A stretch of 64,000 nucleotides of DNA from Myxococcaceae bacterium (lineage in GTDB: Bacteria > Myxococcota > Myxococcia > Myxococcales > Myxococcaceae). The position numbers and the translations under genes were made by a program. The stretch covers positions 62,001 through 126,000 of the forward strand of contig JAEUJQ010000027.1 of the NCBI GenBank assembly GCA_016793095.1, read 5' to 3'. Below the pieces are notes generated by a model. It did not search any database, was not told the origin of the DNA, and saw nothing but the letters and a program-made list of their open reading frames with translations. Shown one piece after another: positions 34,862-47,836 of this stretch (position 1 is the first letter of the stretch; each line of letters opens with the position of its first letter).

Positions 34862-36481
34862 GTGCAGTCCAGAGCGCTTCTCGTGGTGCTGGCCCTCTCG
34901 GCCGCCTGTGGCGTGAAGCCGCCCGCCGGCGCGGGAGCGGAGATCTGCGACAACAAGAAGGACGACAACGGCGACGGCAAGATCGACTGCGTCGATCCGA
35001 AGTGCTTCCAGCACGCCTCCTGCCTGGTTTCCCCTCGCGAAGACTGCACCAACGCAGTCGATGACGACGGGAACGGAAAGAGCGACTGCGCCGATCCGAC
35101 CTGCGAGGGCGAGTCGTGCGGCTCCGGCTGCCTCTGCCTCGGAGGCCAGCGCATGACCGGGACGGGAGGCGGGGTCGGAGGCGGCGCCGGTGGCGGGACG
35201 GCAGGCGGCTCGGTGACCGGCGGTGGCTCGGCGACCGGCGGTGGCTCGGTGACCGGCGGTGGCTCGGCGACCGGCGGTGGCTCGGCGACCGGCGGCGGCT
35301 CGGTGACCGGCGGCGGCTCGGTGACCGGCGGCGGCTCGGTGACCGGCGGCGGGTCGGCCACGCCGGAGACGAACTGCGCCAACAACATGGATGACGACGG
35401 CGACAACAGGACCGACTGCGACGACCCCGACTGCGTGGGCGTCACCTGCGGCATGGGCTGCGTCTGCGCGCTCAACCGCCGCGTCGAGTCGAGCTGCGCC
35501 GACAACCTCGACAACGACGGCGACGGACAGCGCGACTGCGCTGACTCCGACTGCGTGGGCGCCGGCACCGAGCTCTGCGACGACGGCATCGACAACACCT
35601 GCGATCGCGCCATCGACTGCGGCGACCCCCTCTGCACCGGCAACGGGGCCTGCGCGAACGTGCTCGACGGCCGGGCCTGCCTCTCGTCGAGCCAGTGCGC
35701 CTCTGGCCGCTGCCTCTCCGAGGCGCTCGACGGCATTCCCAACGGGACGTGCACCAACGCCACCGCGTGCAACGTCTCGGCGCAGACCGGCTGCAACGGC
35801 GGCCGTTGTGTGTCCGTCGGCGGCCAGGGCCAGTGCCTCGCGCCCTGCACCGGCACGGGCCTCGGCGCGACCGGCCGCTGCCGCGCGGGCTTTGCCTGCG
35901 TCGACGCCGACTCGAACCCGAACAACGACAACAACACCTGCCGGCCCCTGTGTTCCAGCGACTCGGAATGCAGCGGCAGCGGAGCCGGTTACGGGTGCAA
36001 CCCATGGAGCAAGCTCTGCCAGAGCCGGGACCGCGGCCTCGCGAAGTACGGCGCCGCGTGCACGCTGAACGCCCAGTGCGAGGGCGGGCTCTGTCTGCGG
36101 GGCGTCGAGTTCCCGAACGGCTCCTGCACCGGGTGGTGCCGCGCGGACAGCCGCAACTGCGGGCCCGACGGCTACTGCTACGTCGACGTCTCGTACGGGG
36201 ACAACCTGGGCACCTGCTACCAGTCGTGCATGGGCGCGGGCGGTACGCCGTCAACCTGTCGCGTCTCGGACAACTACAAGTGCTGGCCCATGTTCCAGGG
36301 TGGGCCTACCGCGTGCGTCTGCATCGCGCCGGGCGGGCCGTGTGTGATCGGAGGCGCCAGTGACTGCTGCACCGGCATCTGCCAGACCGGAACGTGTCGC
36401 TGCGTCCCCGCCTTCGGCACCTGCTCCGCTCACCGGGAGTGCTGCTCCGGTACGTGCTTCGCCGGTTCGTGTACCTTCTGA
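34862..36481 (+). CDS. Cys-rich lipoprotein with calcium-loop-like repeats and Gly/Ser linker
   Basis: 539 residues from a GTG start; the signal LLVVLALSAAC fits a lipobox. Repeats of the form EICDNKKDDNGDGKIDCVD, with DDDGNGKSDC and DNDGDGQRDC later, look like Cys-bracketed DxDxDG calcium loops, five or so in total. A linker of GGGSAT/GGGSVT (about residues 102-165) separates the first pair from the rest. The C-terminal ~250 residues have many Cys pairs (CASGRCLSEA; CQSRDRG; CTGICQTGTCRC). It is probably a calcium-stabilised, disulphide-rich surface protein. TAGCGT (34822-34827) upstream may be a -10. Confidence 0.78.
   Translation: MQSRALLVVLALSAACGVKPPAGAGAEICDNKKDDNGDGKIDCVDPKCFQHASCLVSPREDCTNAVDDDGNGKSDCADPTCEGESCGSGCLCLGGQRMTGTGGGVGGGAGGGTAGGSVTGGGSATGGGSVTGGGSATGGGSATGGGSVTGGGSVTGGGSVTGGGSATPETNCANNMDDDGDNRTDCDDPDCVGVTCGMGCVCALNRRVESSCADNLDNDGDGQRDCADSDCVGAGTELCDDGIDNTCDRAIDCGDPLCTGNGACANVLDGRACLSSSQCASGRCLSEALDGIPNGTCTNATACNVSAQTGCNGGRCVSVGGQGQCLAPCTGTGLGATGRCRAGFACVDADSNPNNDNNTCRPLCSSDSECSGSGAGYGCNPWSKLCQSRDRGLAKYGAACTLNAQCEGGLCLRGVEFPNGSCTGWCRADSRNCGPDGYCYVDVSYGDNLGTCYQSCMGAGGTPSTCRVSDNYKCWPMFQGGPTACVCIAPGGPCVIGGASDCCTGICQTGTCRCVPAFGTCSAHRECCSGTCFAGSCTF
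35163..35358 (+). repeat. 18-bp coding minisatellite (GGGSAT/GGGSVT linker)
   Basis: Tandem GGCGGTGGCTCGGCGACC-like units inside the calcium-loop lipoprotein gene. Some units use GTG (Val) instead of GCG (Ala). This 18-bp period differs from the 15-bp periods at 3384 and 20534. Confidence 0.85.
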
Positions 36482-39672: not shown

Positions 39673-40431
39673 TCAAAACGCGCCGTGCCGTCCCGCGCCC
39701 TTCGCGAAGCGGGCGGCGCCCTCGACGCCCTCGGCGAGCAGCGCGCCGAGGCCACCCTCGAACTCGTTGGCGAGGGCGCGCGGCAGATCGTGCTCCCACT
39801 GCGTGAGCGCCGAGAGGCGATCGGCGCGCATGCACCGCTGCGGAAAGGAGGCCACCTGCCGGGCGAGCGCCTCGGCCTCCTCGCGTGCCTTCCCCTTCGG
39901 CACCACGCGGTTGGCGAGGCCGATGGCGAGCGCCTCGTTCGCGTCGACGGGGCGACCGGTGAGGATCAGATCGAGCGCGCGCGACTGGCCGATGAGGCGC
40001 GGCAGGCGCACGGTGCCGCCGTCGATGAGCGGCACGCCCCAGCGCCGGCAGAACACGCCGAAGACCGCGTCCTCCTCGACGACGCGCAGATCGCACCAGC
40101 ACGCGAGCTCGAGGCCTCCCGCGACCGCGTAGCCGCTGACGGCGGCGATGACGGGCTTCGAGAGCAACAGGCGTGACGGGCCCATCGGCCCGGCGCCAAA
40201 GGGATCGACCCGGTTCTGCCGCTCGGTGCCGACGGACTTGAGATCGGCGCCCGCGCAGAAGGTGCCGCCGTCGCCGAAGAGCACCGCCACCGAGGCGCTG
40301 TCGTCGGCCTCGAACGCCTGGAAGGCCTCGGTGAGGGCCTTGCCCGTCGTGCCGTCGACGGCGTTCCTGGCCTCGGGGCGGTGGAGGATGACGGTGGTGA
40401 CGACGCCGTTCTTCTCGATGCGCACGCTCAT
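39673..40431 (-). CDS. Enoyl-CoA hydratase/isomerase (crotonase) family protein
   Basis: 252 residues, starting at the ATG at 40431. It has FCAGADLK, the oxyanion-hole pattern, then AVSGYAVAGGLELACWCDLR and the trimerisation-region GVPLIDGGTVRLPRLIG. The FxxPE glutamate typical of true hydratases is replaced (FGVFCRRWG). It may therefore be an isomerase or another crotonase activity rather than a classical hydratase. The substrate is not predictable. Upstream of a pair of unrecognised genes; on the same strand as the ATPase/Toprim-like pair but 135 bp away from it. Confidence 0.88.
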   Translation of the reverse strand: MSVRIEKNGVVTTVILHRPEARNAVDGTTGKALTEAFQAFEADDSASVAVLFGDGGTFCAGADLKSVGTERQNRVDPFGAGPMGPSRLLLSKPVIAAVSGYAVAGGLELACWCDLRVVEEDAVFGVFCRRWGVPLIDGGTVRLPRLIGQSRALDLILTGRPVDANEALAIGLANRVVPKGKAREEAEALARQVASFPQRCMRADRLSALTQWEHDLPRALANEFEGGLGALLAEGVEGAARFAKGAGRHGAF

Positions 40432-40566
40432 GGAGCCCTCGCTACGCGATGCCGACTCGTCGCACTTCGGCACGACCATCGACCAGCGACGGAGGAGCCG
40501 ACGCAAGCGTGCTCCAACTCCCAGCAGCAGCGATGATCGTCGCCCGCTCGGCTCTTTCCAGCTGTC

Positions 40567-40995
40567 TCATGGAGTCGCTCCAACCGGAGTCCTGTTCACC
40601 CGAACGCTCTCGGCAGGCGTGCCGAGCTCAGCGAGGTGGAGCACCCACGTCTCGATGCACCAGGTCGGAACGCAGACCGCGACGGGCTCAGCGGCCTGCC
40701 GGGCCTCCATTGAGTGTGCGGCCAGGCGCGCATCCAGCTCGGTCTTCCGCTGCGTCACCCCCACCGCATCGCCATCGATGTGCACGAGGAGCCCGAGGTT
40801 GGCCTGAAACGCCTTCGCACGACGCTGCCGAACGAGCGCCGGGTAGCGACTCAGCACCCAGTCTGCAGCGCTCCCCTGCCCGTCGGGCGCTACCTCGACC
40901 CCCACGACCCGAACACCGGCCTGTTCACACAGCCGCCGGAAAAACCGCTCGGCCCGCCGGTCTTCGCAGAGCAGGCGCACACGAGACTGGCTCAT
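40567..40995 (-). CDS. Small Toprim-like protein, partner of the AAA ATPase (possible defence nuclease)
   Basis: 142 residues. The fold reads as a short Toprim domain: a conserved Glu in LLCEDRRAERFF (E11), the D-x-D motif in HIDGD (D74, D76) and a later IETW (E115), as in DUF4276-type Toprim proteins. The first motif after VRLL and the WxIETW end are characteristic. It is shorter than most DUF4276 members (~200). The start overlaps the ATPase stop by 4 bp (ATGA), so the two are translationally coupled. Toprim plus ATPase pairs include OLD-family, Gabija-like and PARIS-type phage-defence systems. Nuclease activity is inferred, not seen. Confidence 0.65.
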   Translation of the reverse strand: MSQSRVRLLCEDRRAERFFRRLCEQAGVRVVGVEVAPDGQGSAADWVLSRYPALVRQRRAKAFQANLGLLVHIDGDAVGVTQRKTELDARLAAHSMEARQAAEPVAVCVPTWCIETWVLHLAELGTPAESVRVNRTPVGATP

Positions 40996-42119
40996 GGTTC
41001 GAGTCCAGTCCCGGACCTGGACTCGGCCACGAACTTGAACGCGTCATACGCCGTGACCCCGCTCGCCAGGTCGGGGAGGAGGGGGGCGATGCGTATGTGA
41101 CCAGCGTCCTTGTCTCGCCACATCCTCCATGTACCGTCCGCGGCGAGGTAGTTGATGGTCTCAGGATGGTGCGACACGACGAGGAGCTGCTGGTTCTTCT
41201 CTGCCGCAGCGTCGCCGACAGCCTGGAGCCAGGGCTGGATTCCCTGAGGGGCAACGTAGTTTTCCGCCTCATCGAGCACGATCAGCGAGGCCCGCGGAAG
41301 CCCCAACCGCAGCAGCCCGTACAACGCAATCAGCAACCGCTGACCATCCGAGAGTTTCGCCCACCCGAGTTCGTGTGTCCGTTGTCCGAACGAGAAGCGC
41401 GCGCGAAGGTCCTTCACCTCTGGAGAAATGGGTTCAAGGCGCAGCGTCGAGAAACCGGCGAGAACCGCCTGCAGGTCCCTTCGGAGCGCATCGGTCGCGT
41501 CGGGGTCCTCGCCCATCCGCGAGCGATACCAGCTGGCGAAGTTGGACAGGTCTCGTTCGAGCCAGGGGTTCTCCGCCACCGCTGCGCCACCAAGGCGGCG
41601 CGGGTCCGGCTTCACCGCCCAGATCGACCCGATCGCCTCCCGAAACGCGATGATTCGCTTGTTGTCTGCGCGCTGCTCCAGCGCCGAGATGAACGACCGC
41701 CTTCGATCGAAGGGAATCGTCGTTCTTGCGACCGCGCTCGGGGGATCGTCACCGAAGAGCTCGACCTTCCCGCCGTCCGCCCGGTAGAGCACGGCTCCGT
41801 TCGCCTTCAGCTCCTCGCGCACTGCGGTTCGCCCTGTCTCGAGCCGAATGTCGAGGCGGTAGTGGAAGGCGTCCGAAGCGACGATGGCCTCGAGTTCGAA
41901 CGACTGGAGTTCATCCTGCAGCCATTCGGTGCGCGCAGAAGTCGATGGAGTCTCGTCTACAGTTCTCCCGTGCACGAGCAGGTCCTGAAGAAGCCAGAGC
42001 ACCTCCACGAAAGCGCTCTTCCCGGCTCCGTTCTCGCCGACCAACACGCTTGCTCGCGGTGGGACCCACTCGAAGTTCACGAATGAGCGGAAGTTGTGTG
42101 CGTACAAGCGCTTCAGCAT
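40992..42119 (-). CDS. AAA/ABC-type ATPase of a two-gene module (possible phage defence)
   Basis: 375 residues from the ATG at 42119, preceded by GGAGGAACC, a good ribosome site; a further ATG at 42158 would only add an untypical N-terminus. The order is that of SMC/ABC-like solitary ATPases: Walker A GENGAGKS (28-35), an ABC-signature-like LSDGQ (256-260), Walker B LIVLDEAE (279-286) and an H-loop histidine in VVSHH (316). This resembles the COG4637/AAA_21 predicted ATPases found with small Toprim proteins. By eye the gene looks slightly less GC-rich than its surroundings. Function beyond ATPase is inference. Confidence 0.78.
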   Translation of the reverse strand: MLKRLYAHNFRSFVNFEWVPPRASVLVGENGAGKSAFVEVLWLLQDLLVHGRTVDETPSTSARTEWLQDELQSFELEAIVASDAFHYRLDIRLETGRTAVREELKANGAVLYRADGGKVELFGDDPPSAVARTTIPFDRRRSFISALEQRADNKRIIAFREAIGSIWAVKPDPRRLGGAAVAENPWLERDLSNFASWYRSRMGEDPDATDALRRDLQAVLAGFSTLRLEPISPEVKDLRARFSFGQRTHELGWAKLSDGQRLLIALYGLLRLGLPRASLIVLDEAENYVAPQGIQPWLQAVGDAAAEKNQQLLVVSHHPETINYLAADGTWRMWRDKDAGHIRIAPLLPDLASGVTAYDAFKFVAESRSGTGLEP

Positions 42120-42204
42120 GGTTCCTCCGGCGAGACGCGTGAACGTAGCAGGCTTCATGGCCTCGGGCTGAGCACGTGGTCGTCGACTTGCGCAGCAGCC
42201 CCGA

Positions 42205-42217: not shown

Positions 42218-43201
42218 ATGGACGAGCGCATTCGCAGCGCCCTCGCAGCCCACGGCGCGACGCTGACGTCGGTGAAGCCGCTGCACGGCGGCGCCTGCCA
42301 GGAGAACTTCAAGATCGAGCTCACCCTCGACGGAAAGCCCCTCACGCTCGCGCTGCGAAGTGACGCGAAGACGTCGCTGCCGGGCAGCCTTCGCCGACGC
42401 GCCGAGTACGCGGTGATCGGCGCCGCGGTGCAGGCCGGCGTGCAGACGCCCACCGCCCGGTGGTTGTCCCCTGGCCTGCTGCGCGAGGGCGCCGACGCGT
42501 ACTTCCTCGACTGGGCGAGCGGCGAGGCCATCGGTCGTCGGGTGGTGCGCAACCCCGAGCTCGCCGAGGCCCGAGCGAAGCTGCCAGGCCAGCTCGCGGT
42601 CACCCTCGCCCGGCTCCACAGCATCACCCCGGCGACGGCGGCGCTGCCGCTCGAGGTGCCGAAGACGTCTCCTGCGCAGAGCGCCCTCGACTCGCTCAAC
42701 GTGATGATGGACTCGATGCCCGTCGTCTACCCAGCGGTCGAGTTCGGGTTGCAGTGGCTCGCCGCGCGCATCCCTGTCGAGCGTGAGGTGGTGCTGCTGC
42801 ATGGCGACTTCCGCACGGGGAACTTCATGGTGACCCCCGAGGGCCTGTCGGCGGTGCTCGACTGGGAGTTCGCCCGCTGGGGCTCGCCGTACGAGGACCT
42901 GTCGTGGGTCTCCGTGCGCGACTGGCGCTTCAACCGCCTCGAGCTGCCCGTGGGCGGCTTCGCGAAGCGCGCGCCCTTCTACGAGGCCTACGAGCGCGCG
43001 AGCGGCCGCCGCGTCGACCTCGACGCCGTGCTGTGGTGGGAGATCGTCGGCAACCTGCGCTGGGCGCTCGGCAGCGTGCACCAGGGCGAGCGCTATCTGT
43101 CCGGCGAACAGACCGACCTCGAGCTGATCGCCATCGCCCGGCGGAACGTCGAGATGGAGTTCGAGGCGCTGAGGCTCATTCGTCGCGGGAGGCTCGACTG
43201 A
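42218..43201 (+). CDS. Aminoglycoside-phosphotransferase-fold protein of an ACAD10-like operon
   Basis: 327 residues from the ATG at 42218; a GTG at 42176 is in frame but would sit upstream of the -10-like TAGAAC. The APH/choline-kinase fold is clear: HGDFRTGNFM (catalytic H-x-D-x-x-x-x-N) and VLDWEFARWGSPYEDLSW (metal-binding DWE). The adjacent DUF6285 and acyl-CoA dehydrogenase genes follow after 1 bp each. This trio is common in proteobacteria and resembles the domain arrangement of ACAD10/11, which phosphorylate and process 4-hydroxy-acyl-CoAs. The role is thus probably catabolism of hydroxylated fatty acids. Confidence 0.85.
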   Translation: MDERIRSALAAHGATLTSVKPLHGGACQENFKIELTLDGKPLTLALRSDAKTSLPGSLRRRAEYAVIGAAVQAGVQTPTARWLSPGLLREGADAYFLDWASGEAIGRRVVRNPELAEARAKLPGQLAVTLARLHSITPATAALPLEVPKTSPAQSALDSLNVMMDSMPVVYPAVEFGLQWLAARIPVEREVVLLHGDFRTGNFMVTPEGLSAVLDWEFARWGSPYEDLSWVSVRDWRFNRLELPVGGFAKRAPFYEAYERASGRRVDLDAVLWWEIVGNLRWALGSVHQGERYLSGEQTDLELIAIARRNVEMEFEALRLIRRGRLD

Positions 43202-43620: not shown

Positions 43621-44814
43621 ATGGACTTCCTGCTCAACGAGACGCTGTCGGCGACCCGCCAGCGCGTTCGCGAGTTCGTCGACGCGCACATCATCCCCGC
43701 CGAGAATCAGGTGTTCGCCGAGGATCGCGCCGGCAAGCGCGACACGCTGAAGGCGCTGCAGGCGAGGGCGCGCGCCGAGGGCCTGTGGGTCCCGCACCTG
43801 CCGCCGTCGCTCGGGGGGCTCGGGCTGGGCCCCATGGGCATGTGCGCGCTGTTCCGCGAGATGGGCCGCAGCCCGGTCGGCGCCAAGGTGTTCAACTGCG
43901 ACGCGCCCGATCAGGGGAACATGGACCTGCTCCTGATGGCGGCGAAGCAGGCCCACCAGGATCGGTACCTCGCGCCGCTGGTGCGCGCCGAGATCACCAG
44001 CGCCTTCTGCATGACGGAGCCCGCGCCCGGCGCCGGGGCGGACCCCACTAACCTGCGCACCGCAGCGAAGCCCGTGACCGGCGGCTGGGAGATCACCGGC
44101 CGCAAGTGGTACTCGACCGGGGCCCGCAACGCGTCGTTCCTCGTCGTGATGGCGCGCACGAGCGACGATCCAAAGACGGGCGCGACGATGTTCCTCGTCG
44201 ATCGCCACGCGAAGGGCGTCACCTACGTGCGTGACATCCCCACGTTCGGCGACTCGCCGCTCGATCATGTCGAGGGCGAGCTCACCTTCGACGCGGTGAA
44301 GGTGACGCCCGACGACGTGCTCGGCCAGCTCGGCGAGGGCTTCAAGCTCGCTCAGGTGCGGCTGGTGCCGGCGCGGCTGACCCACTGCATGCGCTGGTTG
44401 GGCCTCGCCGAGCGCACGCTCGAGCTGTGCCGCCCGTACATCACCGAGCGTCAGAGCTTCGGACGCGAGCTCGCGCGCCACCAGCTCGTGCAGCAGATGA
44501 TCGCCCGCAACGTGAGCGCCATGCACGCGGGCAACCTGATGACGCTGCACGCGGCGTGGATGCTCGAGCAGGGCAAGCACAAGGAAGCGAAGCCCTACTC
44601 GTCGATGGCGAAGAACCACGTCGCGAAGCTGCTGTGCGACGTGCTCGACGACGCCATGCAGATGCACGGCGGGCTCGGCTACTCTGATGACGTGCCCTTC
44701 GGCCGCTGGTACCGCGCCGCGCGCGCAGCCCGCTTCGCCGACGGCCCGGACGAGGTCCACACGATCACCGTGGCGCGAGACTGGCTGCTGGGGCGCCTCG
44801 AAGTGCTGGTGTGA
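43621..44814 (+). CDS. Acyl-CoA dehydrogenase (ACAD10/11-like)
   Basis: 397 residues, full length. It contains the FAD/substrate-binding ITSAFCMTEP, the WYSTGA motif and the C-terminal QMHGGLGYSDDVPFGRWYR, with RQSFGRELARHQLVQ in the helical domain. These fit the ACAD10/11 branch that acts on 4-hydroxyacyl-CoA derivatives after phosphorylation, which matches the adjacent phosphotransferase. A flavoprotein in the cytoplasm. The kinase gene after it starts 7 bp downstream but is not functionally linked in any obvious way. Confidence 0.92.
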   Translation: MDFLLNETLSATRQRVREFVDAHIIPAENQVFAEDRAGKRDTLKALQARARAEGLWVPHLPPSLGGLGLGPMGMCALFREMGRSPVGAKVFNCDAPDQGNMDLLLMAAKQAHQDRYLAPLVRAEITSAFCMTEPAPGAGADPTNLRTAAKPVTGGWEITGRKWYSTGARNASFLVVMARTSDDPKTGATMFLVDRHAKGVTYVRDIPTFGDSPLDHVEGELTFDAVKVTPDDVLGQLGEGFKLAQVRLVPARLTHCMRWLGLAERTLELCRPYITERQSFGRELARHQLVQQMIARNVSAMHAGNLMTLHAAWMLEQGKHKEAKPYSSMAKNHVAKLLCDVLDDAMQMHGGLGYSDDVPFGRWYRAARAARFADGPDEVHTITVARDWLLGRLEVLV

Positions 44815-44821
44815 GGGCTCC

Positions 44822-46171
<1,350 letters not shown>

Positions 46172-46174
46172 GGG

Positions 46175-46519
46175 TCAACCGCCGAGCAGGCTGACGAACG
46201 GCGCGGGACCGATGGCGCCGATGACGATGGCTCCGGCCTCGACGGCGAGCGACGTCGCCAGCACGCTCTTGCGCGCGTCCTCGGTCGCTTCGCCCTGGCG
46301 CTCCTTCTGCTTCAGCATCGACGAGCGCAGAACGAAGACGACCAGGCCGAGCGCGGCGACGCCCACGGTCGTGAGGAACCACGCGAGGTGGGCCGTCTGG
46401 GAGAGCGTGATCTGCCCCTCAGAGAGCACCAGACGCAGGGCGGCGACTCCGAGCGCGGCGCCCTCGGTGACCGCGATGAGCAGGAAGTGGGTCCGATTGA
46501 ACGGCTGAGGCGAAGCCAT
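46175..46519 (-). CDS. Small integral membrane protein of unknown function
   Basis: 114 residues with three or four hydrophobic helices (LLIAVTEGAALGVAALRLVL; AWFLTTVGVAALGLVVFVL; VEAGAIVIGAIGPAPFVSLL) and a short charged loop (KQKERQGEATEDARKS). It lies 12 bp downstream of the MYXO-CTERM hydrolase on the minus strand and is probably co-transcribed with it. I do not recognise the family. Confidence 0.65.
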   Translation of the reverse strand: MASPQPFNRTHFLLIAVTEGAALGVAALRLVLSEGQITLSQTAHLAWFLTTVGVAALGLVVFVLRSSMLKQKERQGEATEDARKSVLATSLAVEAGAIVIGAIGPAPFVSLLGG

Positions 46520-46531
46520 GAGGTGCTGACC

Positions 46532-47836
46532 TTACCCCACGTCCTTGCCAGCACCGCGGCGCACGCCGCCGTCATGAAGCGTCCGCGCTGAACCTCGGCG
46601 ACGGCGCAACGCGAGCACCCCAAGGAGCACCGTCACGCCGGGGCCCGAGACACAGCCGCACCCAGCGGGCGCCGTCGTCGCGCATCGGCCCGCCTCGCAG
46701 ACCTGATCTGCCATGCAGATCGCGCACGCACCGCCGTTGAGCCCACACGTCTGCGCCGAAGGTGCGACGCACTGCGCGCCGTTGCAGCAACCGGTGCAGG
46801 TCGAGGCGTTGCACGTGGCTGAACCACCGCCGGTGGACGCGGTCCCTCCGGCCGTCGCGGTCCCTCCGGCGGCTGCGGTCCCTCCGGCGGTCGCGGTCCC
46901 TCCGGCGATCGCGGTCCCTCCGGCGGTCGCGGTCCCTCCGGCGATCGCGGTCCCTCCGGCGGTCGCGGTGCCGCCCGCCGTCGCCGTCCCGCCGCCAGCG
47001 CCACCCCCCATTCCGCCGTCGATGCCGCACAGGTTTCCCAACGCCATCGTCACCTGGTTGATCGTCCCGTTGGAGGCGTCGGCGACCGCCATCGCCTCGA
47101 CGCAGGAGCTGGTGCTTCCGGTCAGGAACTGCCCCAGGAACGCTCGCGCGTAGCGCTTGAAGACGGCCGAGCGCGCCATGTTCCAGGTCGCGAACCCGCA
47201 GGCTCCGGTGCACACGAGGCTCGACGGCTCCTGTGGATCGCAGTGGTTCGCCATGGGCACGTTGAACCGCCCCTTGAGGCCCGGCTTCCCGGTGAACCAG
47301 GTCACGGCGTTGTTCTGGCTGTTGCACGTCTGCGGGGGCGCGAACTCGAAGAGCGTCGGCGCTGCGACCATCGAGGTCTGAGCCGCGCCGAGCCCTGAGC
47401 TGTCCACCGGATCGAGCAACACGACGGCCTTCGTCTGGCTCGACCGTCGGGAGGCCGCGAGCCACGCCGCGAGCCCGCCAGCGCTGTGGCCGCCGAAGCC
47501 GATGCGCGTCGCATCGCCCTGCCCCGAGGTGACGACCGCCTCGACCGCGGCGATCAACGCGTCGGCGTTGAGGGAGTGATCGACCATGAGGCCGCCGGTC
47601 AACTGCGGCGCGACCACGAGCATGCCGTCGGCCTGGAGCGCCTGAGCCAGTCCGCGGACGTTGTCCTTCGTGTTCGAGAAGCCGTGCCCCAGCGCGACGA
47701 CGGGGAACGGCCCGGAGCCGGCCGGGAGGTACCGATCGACCTGAAACGACATGCCGCCGGCCGACACCGTGAAGGTCGTCTGCGCTTGCGTCACCGCGGG
47801 TAGCAGCACGGCGAGGGAGGCGAGGCGGAAGAGCAT
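46532..47836 (-). CDS. Secreted alpha/beta hydrolase with Gly/Thr linker and MYXO-CTERM tail
   Basis: 434 residues. An N-terminal signal peptide (MLFRLASLAVLLPAVTQAQ) leads to a hydrolase domain resembling cutinase/PET-hydrolase-like esterases: PFPVVALGHGFSNTKDN, GGHSAGG (nucleophile Ser), LLDPVDSS and ANHCDPQ with the likely histidine. A GGTATA linker follows, then a Cys-rich segment and finally GCGCVSGPGVTVLLGVLALRRRR. That is a MYXO-CTERM sorting signal (GCGC, hydrophobic helix, Arg cluster). About 20 residues after the Arg cluster are unusual. It is probably anchored at the cell surface through that tail. The substrate is unknown. Confidence 0.83.
   Translation of the reverse strand: MLFRLASLAVLLPAVTQAQTTFTVSAGGMSFQVDRYLPAGSGPFPVVALGHGFSNTKDNVRGLAQALQADGMLVVAPQLTGGLMVDHSLNADALIAAVEAVVTSGQGDATRIGFGGHSAGGLAAWLAASRRSSQTKAVVLLDPVDSSGLGAAQTSMVAAPTLFEFAPPQTCNSQNNAVTWFTGKPGLKGRFNVPMANHCDPQEPSSLVCTGACGFATWNMARSAVFKRYARAFLGQFLTGSTSSCVEAMAVADASNGTINQVTMALGNLCGIDGGMGGGAGGGTATAGGTATAGGTAIAGGTATAGGTAIAGGTATAGGTAAAGGTATAGGTASTGGGSATCNASTCTGCCNGAQCVAPSAQTCGLNGGACAICMADQVCEAGRCATTAPAGCGCVSGPGVTVLLGVLALRRRRGSARTLHDGGVRRGAGKDVG
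46838..46990 (-). repeat. 18-bp coding minisatellite (GGTATA linker)
   Basis: Tandem GGAGGGACCGCGACCGCC-type units (as read on the minus strand) encode the GGTATA linker of the hydrolase, with occasional Ile (GGTAIA) and Ala (GGTAAA) variants. Confidence 0.85.

Follow-up and report, generated by a model that had tools for sequence, protein, structure and literature searches.

A probable horizontally acquired OLD-type ATPase–Toprim cassette with a frameshifted partner gene in a Myxococcaceae genome

Introduction

Split gene pairs in which an OLD-ABC ATPase is linked to a TOPRIM protein form a broad class (PMC12839542). Class 4 OLD systems, or PARIS, consist of an OLD-type ATPase gene and an adjacent, separate Toprim gene (PMC10568477, PMC12796447). 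In PARIS, the Toprim nuclease is kept in check by the ATPase; once freed by a phage protein, it cuts tRNA (PMC12409363). Split OLD-ATPase/Toprim pairs belong to a known class of bacterial immunity, which is incompletely mapped.

Here we describe a gene pair found in a 64,000-nucleotide stretch of a Myxococcaceae genome (contig JAEUJQ010000027.1, positions 62,001 to 126,000), hereafter called the window. An earlier note, made from the letters of the sequence, had proposed an ATPase with a Toprim-like partner, possibly active in phage defence. Our analysis makes it probable that the locus is a horizontally acquired cassette made of a split OLD-ABC ATPase and a Toprim nuclease, and that the nuclease copy is impaired here by a frameshift.

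Results

Organization of the cassette

The two genes are carried by the minus strand. The ATPase gene (40992-42119) comes first and is followed by a 142-codon reading frame (40567-40995). The ATGA overlap of 4 bp that couples them, already pointed out in the earlier note, is indeed present (42119..40992 with 40995..40567) and the same overlap recurs in several homologous loci. The features of the region are as follows.

40992..42119, minus strand: ATPase of the OLD/SMC-type ABC group (AAA_21/RecF-SMC-like), 375 aa; all motif residues identical throughout an alignment of 17 sequences.
40567..40995, minus strand: Toprim-like partner, shortened frame of 142 aa; E11, D74xD76 and IETW kept, early TGA after the frameshift.
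40442..40627, minus strand: displaced C-terminal part of the partner gene, in the -1 frame, ending in APPSLVDGRAEVRRVGIA and a stop; matches the family tail PPSL..a..E..R.
40434..42195, no strand assigned: inserted cassette, approximate limits from congener comparison, between divergent crotonase and APH-like genes.
39673..40431, minus strand: left flank, enoyl-CoA hydratase/crotonase, genus-conserved, outside the module.
42218..43201, plus strand: right flank, APH-family phosphotransferase, divergent, with a conserved start ATG at 42218, outside the module.

The ATPase and its small partner form a self-contained cassette. As the earlier note had described, it is bordered by ordinary genes, a crotonase on one side and an APH-family phosphotransferase on the other, and its GC content (~0.64-0.68) is lower than that of the flanks (~0.70-0.73).

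Elsewhere in the window, alpha/beta hydrolase and lipoprotein-like genes (46532-47836 and 34862-36481) contain long Gly/Thr-Ala repeat linkers (GGTATAGGT..., GGGSATGGGSVT...) of the usual low-complexity type. Between an acyl-CoA dehydrogenase and a hydrolase, region 44687-46519 encodes a Ser/Thr protein kinase and a small protein of 114 aa. Because the dehydrogenase and hydrolase genes adjoin with almost no gap in congener G005, this region looks like a second accessory insertion near the module.

The ATPase

The motifs previously read in the larger protein were all found intact: Walker A GENGAGKS (~42015-42038), the signature LSDGQ (~41340-41354), Walker B VLDEAEN and an H-loop SHH. Across 17 aligned ATPases, residues G28, N30, G31, G33 and K34, L256, S257, G259 and Q260, D283 and E284, and H317 are invariant. 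An upstream start is possible at 42158; homologues start at the equivalent of 42119 (MLKRLY...). The protein matches Pfam AAA_21 above the cut-off (3e-14) and, more weakly, the SMC_N, RecF and Rad50 profiles. PADLOC models matched by the ATPase are AbiLi, mad3, HEC-01A and AriA. Judging from these motifs and the AAA_21 match, the larger protein is an intact OLD/SMC-type ABC ATPase.

The small partner belongs to an unnamed family

The small protein is a member of an unnamed family of ~180 residues. Alignment of 18 members shows that E11, G41, D74, D76, R83, P110, T116 and W117 are invariant and that E115 and E130 are nearly so. Since they are conserved across these 18 proteins, the Toprim-like E11, D74/D76 and IETW motifs first noticed in the 142-residue protein are not due to chance. 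Relative to the strands predicted for an intact homologue, the expected Toprim pattern is present: the conserved E follows strand 1 and the DxD follows strand 3. E, G, DxD, R and TW, all of them invariant, fit a Toprim metal-binding pattern.

Searches with the window protein gave no significant match in Pfam, NCBIfam or PHROGs, and weak matches to PDC-M38B and HEC-01B in PADLOC. Validated defence models do not recognize it, and phmmer against the PDB found no match for either the small protein or its profile. Sub-threshold Pfam matches of the 142-aa protein to the unrelated Peripla_BP_3 and GspH were set aside as chance. In the literature on HEC-01, DUF3226 and DUF4276, we found no account of this family.

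Fold and profile comparisons

The intact homologue from Corallococcus sicarius was predicted with high confidence (AlphaFold; pLDDT 90, pTM 0.88). The order of strands and helices in this model fits Toprim. With VIA-align, Toprim domains of OLD nucleases occupy ranks 1, 2 and 5 (6nk8, Z 7.4; 6njv, 6.7; 6njw, 6.2), and their superpositions span 147-149 residues, C-terminal helices included. The margin is small, as unrelated Rossmann-like chains, lumazine synthases among them, reach Z 6.3. Matches to lumazine synthase and ribose-5-phosphate isomerase were taken to reflect a common alpha/beta arrangement. A weak viral structural match was named RloB. Search with the same model using Foldseek returned nothing at E <= 0.001. 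The earlier note had made its reading depend on a predicted Toprim fold; OLD Toprims do head the VIA-align ranking, with Z values that are suggestive only. The model is thus suggestive of a Toprim-like fold for the small family.

Profile-profile comparison relates the small family to HEC-01B (probability 95%, E 2e-8). The E, the DxD and the helix carrying E-(T/A)-W are in register in this alignment; the C-terminal halves remain unaligned. DUF3226 also matches (93%, E 2.5e-7) over the N-terminal half only, with E...DAD in register. With DUF4276 and DUF4435, which had been named as possible relatives, the comparison was not significant (2% for DUF4276; 6%, E 0.006 for five DUF4435 sequences, aligned over E..DxD..IE only). 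Pfam DUF4435 matched no member of the small family. In Myxococcota loci, a related ATPase gene adjoins 24/27 HEC-01B, 27/30 DUF4276, 7/8 DUF4435 and 15/30 DUF3226 genes.

Elsewhere in the genome that contains the window lie two genes of this kind, one for a true HEC-01B/DUF4276 protein and one for another protein of the DUF4276 type (G000, C69:187765-188361 and C90:234152-234676). These are candidates for other ATPase-Toprim-like systems.

Distribution and insertion site

Relatives of the small protein were found in 19 of 195 Myxococcota genomes, in searches that used one genome per species and in which several homologues came from MAGs or contig ends. A single small protein used as query against genome contigs gave no match. 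A search with a five-member Corallococcus-type alignment found more pairs in Corallococcus species, in a Planctomycetota MAG and in another bacterial MAG. Phage and plasmid records gave no match when searched with one homologue (L028). The ATPase adjoins the small protein in 16 of the 18 homologous loci that were fetched, the two genes mostly overlapping. One of the two loci without ATPase stops at a contig edge; the other, a weak match in G023 (L042, 24 bits) with no ATPase at its side, probably does not belong to the family and was left out of the true pairs.

In all six congeners, the crotonase and APH-like genes lie side by side in divergent orientation, and the cassette is absent from this site in every one of them. 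The patchy occurrence and the absence from this site are unlike the pattern that, according to the earlier note, would speak against its reading, namely a pair shared by nearly all related strains with the same flanks. The gap between the two genes is 56-236 bp in five congeners and holds a different ORF, encoding a ~180-aa unknown protein, in the sixth (G003, L092). As the slot lacks the cassette in congeners, we conclude that the cassette was added in the window genome. In two more distant relatives, the same slot is occupied by single other genes: a 464-aa protein in G021 (L097) and a gene that appears AbiEi/DUF559-like by eye in G023 (L098). Different single genes fill the slot in G021, G023 and G003, so insertion into this crotonase-APH intergenic slot has occurred repeatedly.

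A separate copy of the cassette is present in congener G006, at another locus and with only ~31-33% identity to that of the window. In the ATPase tree, the copies of these two congeners do not group. In many hosts, the GC3 of the cassette is below that of its neighbours. The divergent copy located elsewhere, the ATPase tree and the lower GC3 together indicate horizontal spread of the cassette.

A frameshift in the partner gene

Intact relatives of the small protein are ~163-200 aa long. The window protein aligns with them as far as a VDE-like motif and diverges beyond; relatives whose 3' end is complete run on for another ~45-60 residues, which include a conserved PPSL tail. This tail (...PPSL..a..E..R) was recovered downstream of the 142-aa ORF in a different frame, with a stop at 40442, ~10 bp ahead of the crotonase start. 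An HMM of the C-terminal part of the family, built without the window sequence, matches the displaced frame (40442-40627) with 17.8 bits and E 2.2e-7, the other frames scoring ~0 bits. None of 20,000 shuffles equalled this score. The odd shortness of the partner is damage by frameshift: the C-terminal ~50 residues were moved into another frame, hence the length of 142 aa. The earlier note had singled out this unusually short protein as the most likely novel component. It is instead a frameshifted copy of a ~180-aa family gene that has lost its last two helices.

The 142-aa ORF retains the catalytic core, with all four core strands and each catalytic motif residue, and the ATPase gene is intact, as would be expected of a complete, naturally minimal Toprim selected as a new, shortened effector. 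This seems very unlikely to us, as the PPSL tail of the relatives lies downstream out of frame rather than being deleted, and no second 142-aa version was found among the relatives.

The system could also be functional here if programmed -1 ribosomal frameshifting yielded an intact product, or if the frameshift were a sequencing error. The displaced frame is open and stop-free from 40627 to 40442 and keeps its match to the family tail, as for a recent or spurious lesion, and the frameshift is known from one assembly. Against programmed frameshifting, no slippery heptamer was seen by eye in the overlap and relatives use a single frame. Against a sequencing error, the overlap has no long homopolymer, and ~24 conserved genes over 40 kb of the window show no comparable frameshift with respect to two congeners, which makes a general assembly error unlikely. 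Antisense ORFs, spurious extensions and matches of low complexity account for the few split matches among neighbour genes. A functional system by either route is therefore rather unlikely. We retain true damage to the gene: since the truncated product would lack its last two helices, reduced or lost activity is expected even though the catalytic residues stay, and the nuclease of this copy probably works poorly or not at all.

Three further copies of the cassette are broken: the partner in G110, the second copy in G033 and the copy from Vicinamibacterales. In the single-contig genome G033, an internal deletion across both genes (L128, 3513-3902 and 3728-6733) has left the N-terminal half of the ATPase and the C-terminal half of the Toprim. 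This second copy is evidently a relic, and the genome that carries it is finished.

Discussion

Proposed mechanism and role

PARIS and OLD/Gabija suggest how the intact system would be expected to work. By this analogy, its ATPase, of the ABC type, would dimerize via Walker A and LSDGQ. It may bind the small Toprim protein in a complex that keeps the latter inactive. The ATPase would act as a sensor of infection, and sensing would release or activate the Toprim subunit. The putative E/DxD/E cluster would then bind Mg2+ or Mn2+ and cut nucleic acid, either phage or host DNA or tRNA, and this cleavage would stop phage growth or kill the cell. In the window genome, a frameshift located after the catalytic core would interrupt this sequence of events at the nuclease.

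Judged by analogy, it is rather likely that this type of cassette serves anti-phage defence. We favour such a role because of its patchiness, horizontal spread, decay and kinship. Two observations speak against it: phage and plasmid records gave no match with the one homologue used as query, and neighbours of the pair are metabolic or regulatory genes in most loci, with helicase or candidate-defence neighbours in two loci only, G106 and G129 (SNF2 helicase in the latter). The most defence-like neighbourhood among the loci seen is that of G106 (L037, 31-4940 and 8867-9595), where the pair is flanked by PADLOC HEAT-ARM_XIII and SWIM_XIII genes and a PDC-M17B protein. Generic neighbour matches such as IscS/DndA were considered uninformative on defence.

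The pair might otherwise be a DNA repair or chromosome-maintenance module, in which a RecF/Rad50/SMC-like ATPase works with a processing nuclease. The profile matches of the ATPase to SMC_N, RecF and Rad50 agree with this, as does the class 5 OLD protein Cran1, which acts in the cell cycle and not in defence (PMC12796447). A housekeeping repair gene would hardly be confined to ~10% of genomes, sit at many different insertion sites, differ strongly between copies of a single genus and have decayed several times, so that this role appears unlikely. A pair of the toxin-antitoxin or selfish type, maintained through addiction and not for defence, would account for two overlapping genes, for their decay and for their unrelated host loci, and Pfam annotates AAA_21 as putative AbiEii. 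AAA_21 is, despite its name, a generic OLD/ABC ATPase model, no AbiEi/AbiEii nucleotidyltransferase model is among the matches listed for either protein, and the ATPase, the larger of the two proteins, shows the conservation of an ABC ATPase. We consider addiction highly improbable and keep defence as the preferred role.

More tentatively, and less likely than not, the ~180-aa family may represent a deep branch, not described before, of Toprim effectors that stand alone and have their own ATPase sensor. It would extend across Myxococcota and into Planctomycetota and Vicinamibacterales, with a trigger and target (perhaps tRNA) unlike those of PARIS. If so, its repeated decay in myxobacteria would reflect strong autoimmunity.

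This compact Toprim-like family is missed by current Pfam, NCBIfam and PADLOC models, so defence-finding software would overlook it. The small size of the partner makes it convenient for studying how an ATPase controls a nuclease. Recognizing the short partner as a frameshifted gene is a useful correction: tests need an intact relative, such as the Corallococcus sicarius pair (L028/L102).

Comparison with known systems

Among architectures put forward in the earlier note, that of OLD and PARIS stands, with an OLD/PARIS-like ATPase and a separate Toprim-like gene. That of Gabija does not: there is no fused GajA and the flanks are the crotonase and APH genes. OLD class 1/2 and Gabija GajA resemble the cassette in ATPase architecture, and the C-terminal domains of 6nk8, 6njv and 6njw are the best structural neighbours of the small family. 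In contrast to these proteins, the cassette splits ATPase and Toprim into separate genes; unlike in Gabija, no UvrD-like GajB was noticed next to it.

As in PARIS (AriA/AriB), ATPase and Toprim are encoded by adjacent separate genes, and the window ATPase matches AriA models (1e-15). The small partner differs, being a ~180-aa protein without significant DUF4435-type profile similarity. Likeness to MADS (MAD3/MAD4) comes from the ATPase, which matches mad3/NF047739 (4.5e-18 and 4.9e-11), and from one or two small-family members that match mad4/NF047734 weakly. However, these matches fall far under the curated cut-off (42 vs 420 bits), and neither a methyltransferase of MADS nor any further gene of that system was identified at the window locus. 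DUF3226 and DUF4276 proteins are likewise encoded beside related ATPases, but the similarity of the small family to DUF3226 is confined to the N-terminal half and that to DUF4276 is not significant.

HEC-01 (Hma-embedded candidate 01, HEC-01A and HEC-01B) also comprises two genes, for an ATPase and a partner of ~200 aa. All 17 cassette ATPases match HEC-01A models (best 9e-30; window ATPase 3e-17). The difference lies in the small subunit, which HEC-01B models do not recognize firmly: the window protein scores 13 bits (E 0.016) and the best homologue of the family reaches 7e-7, whereas the best HEC-01B members score up to 250-290 bits. The cassette is best placed in the broad class formed by TOPRIM-linked OLD-ABC pairs, where HEC-01, itself a candidate system, comes nearest to it.
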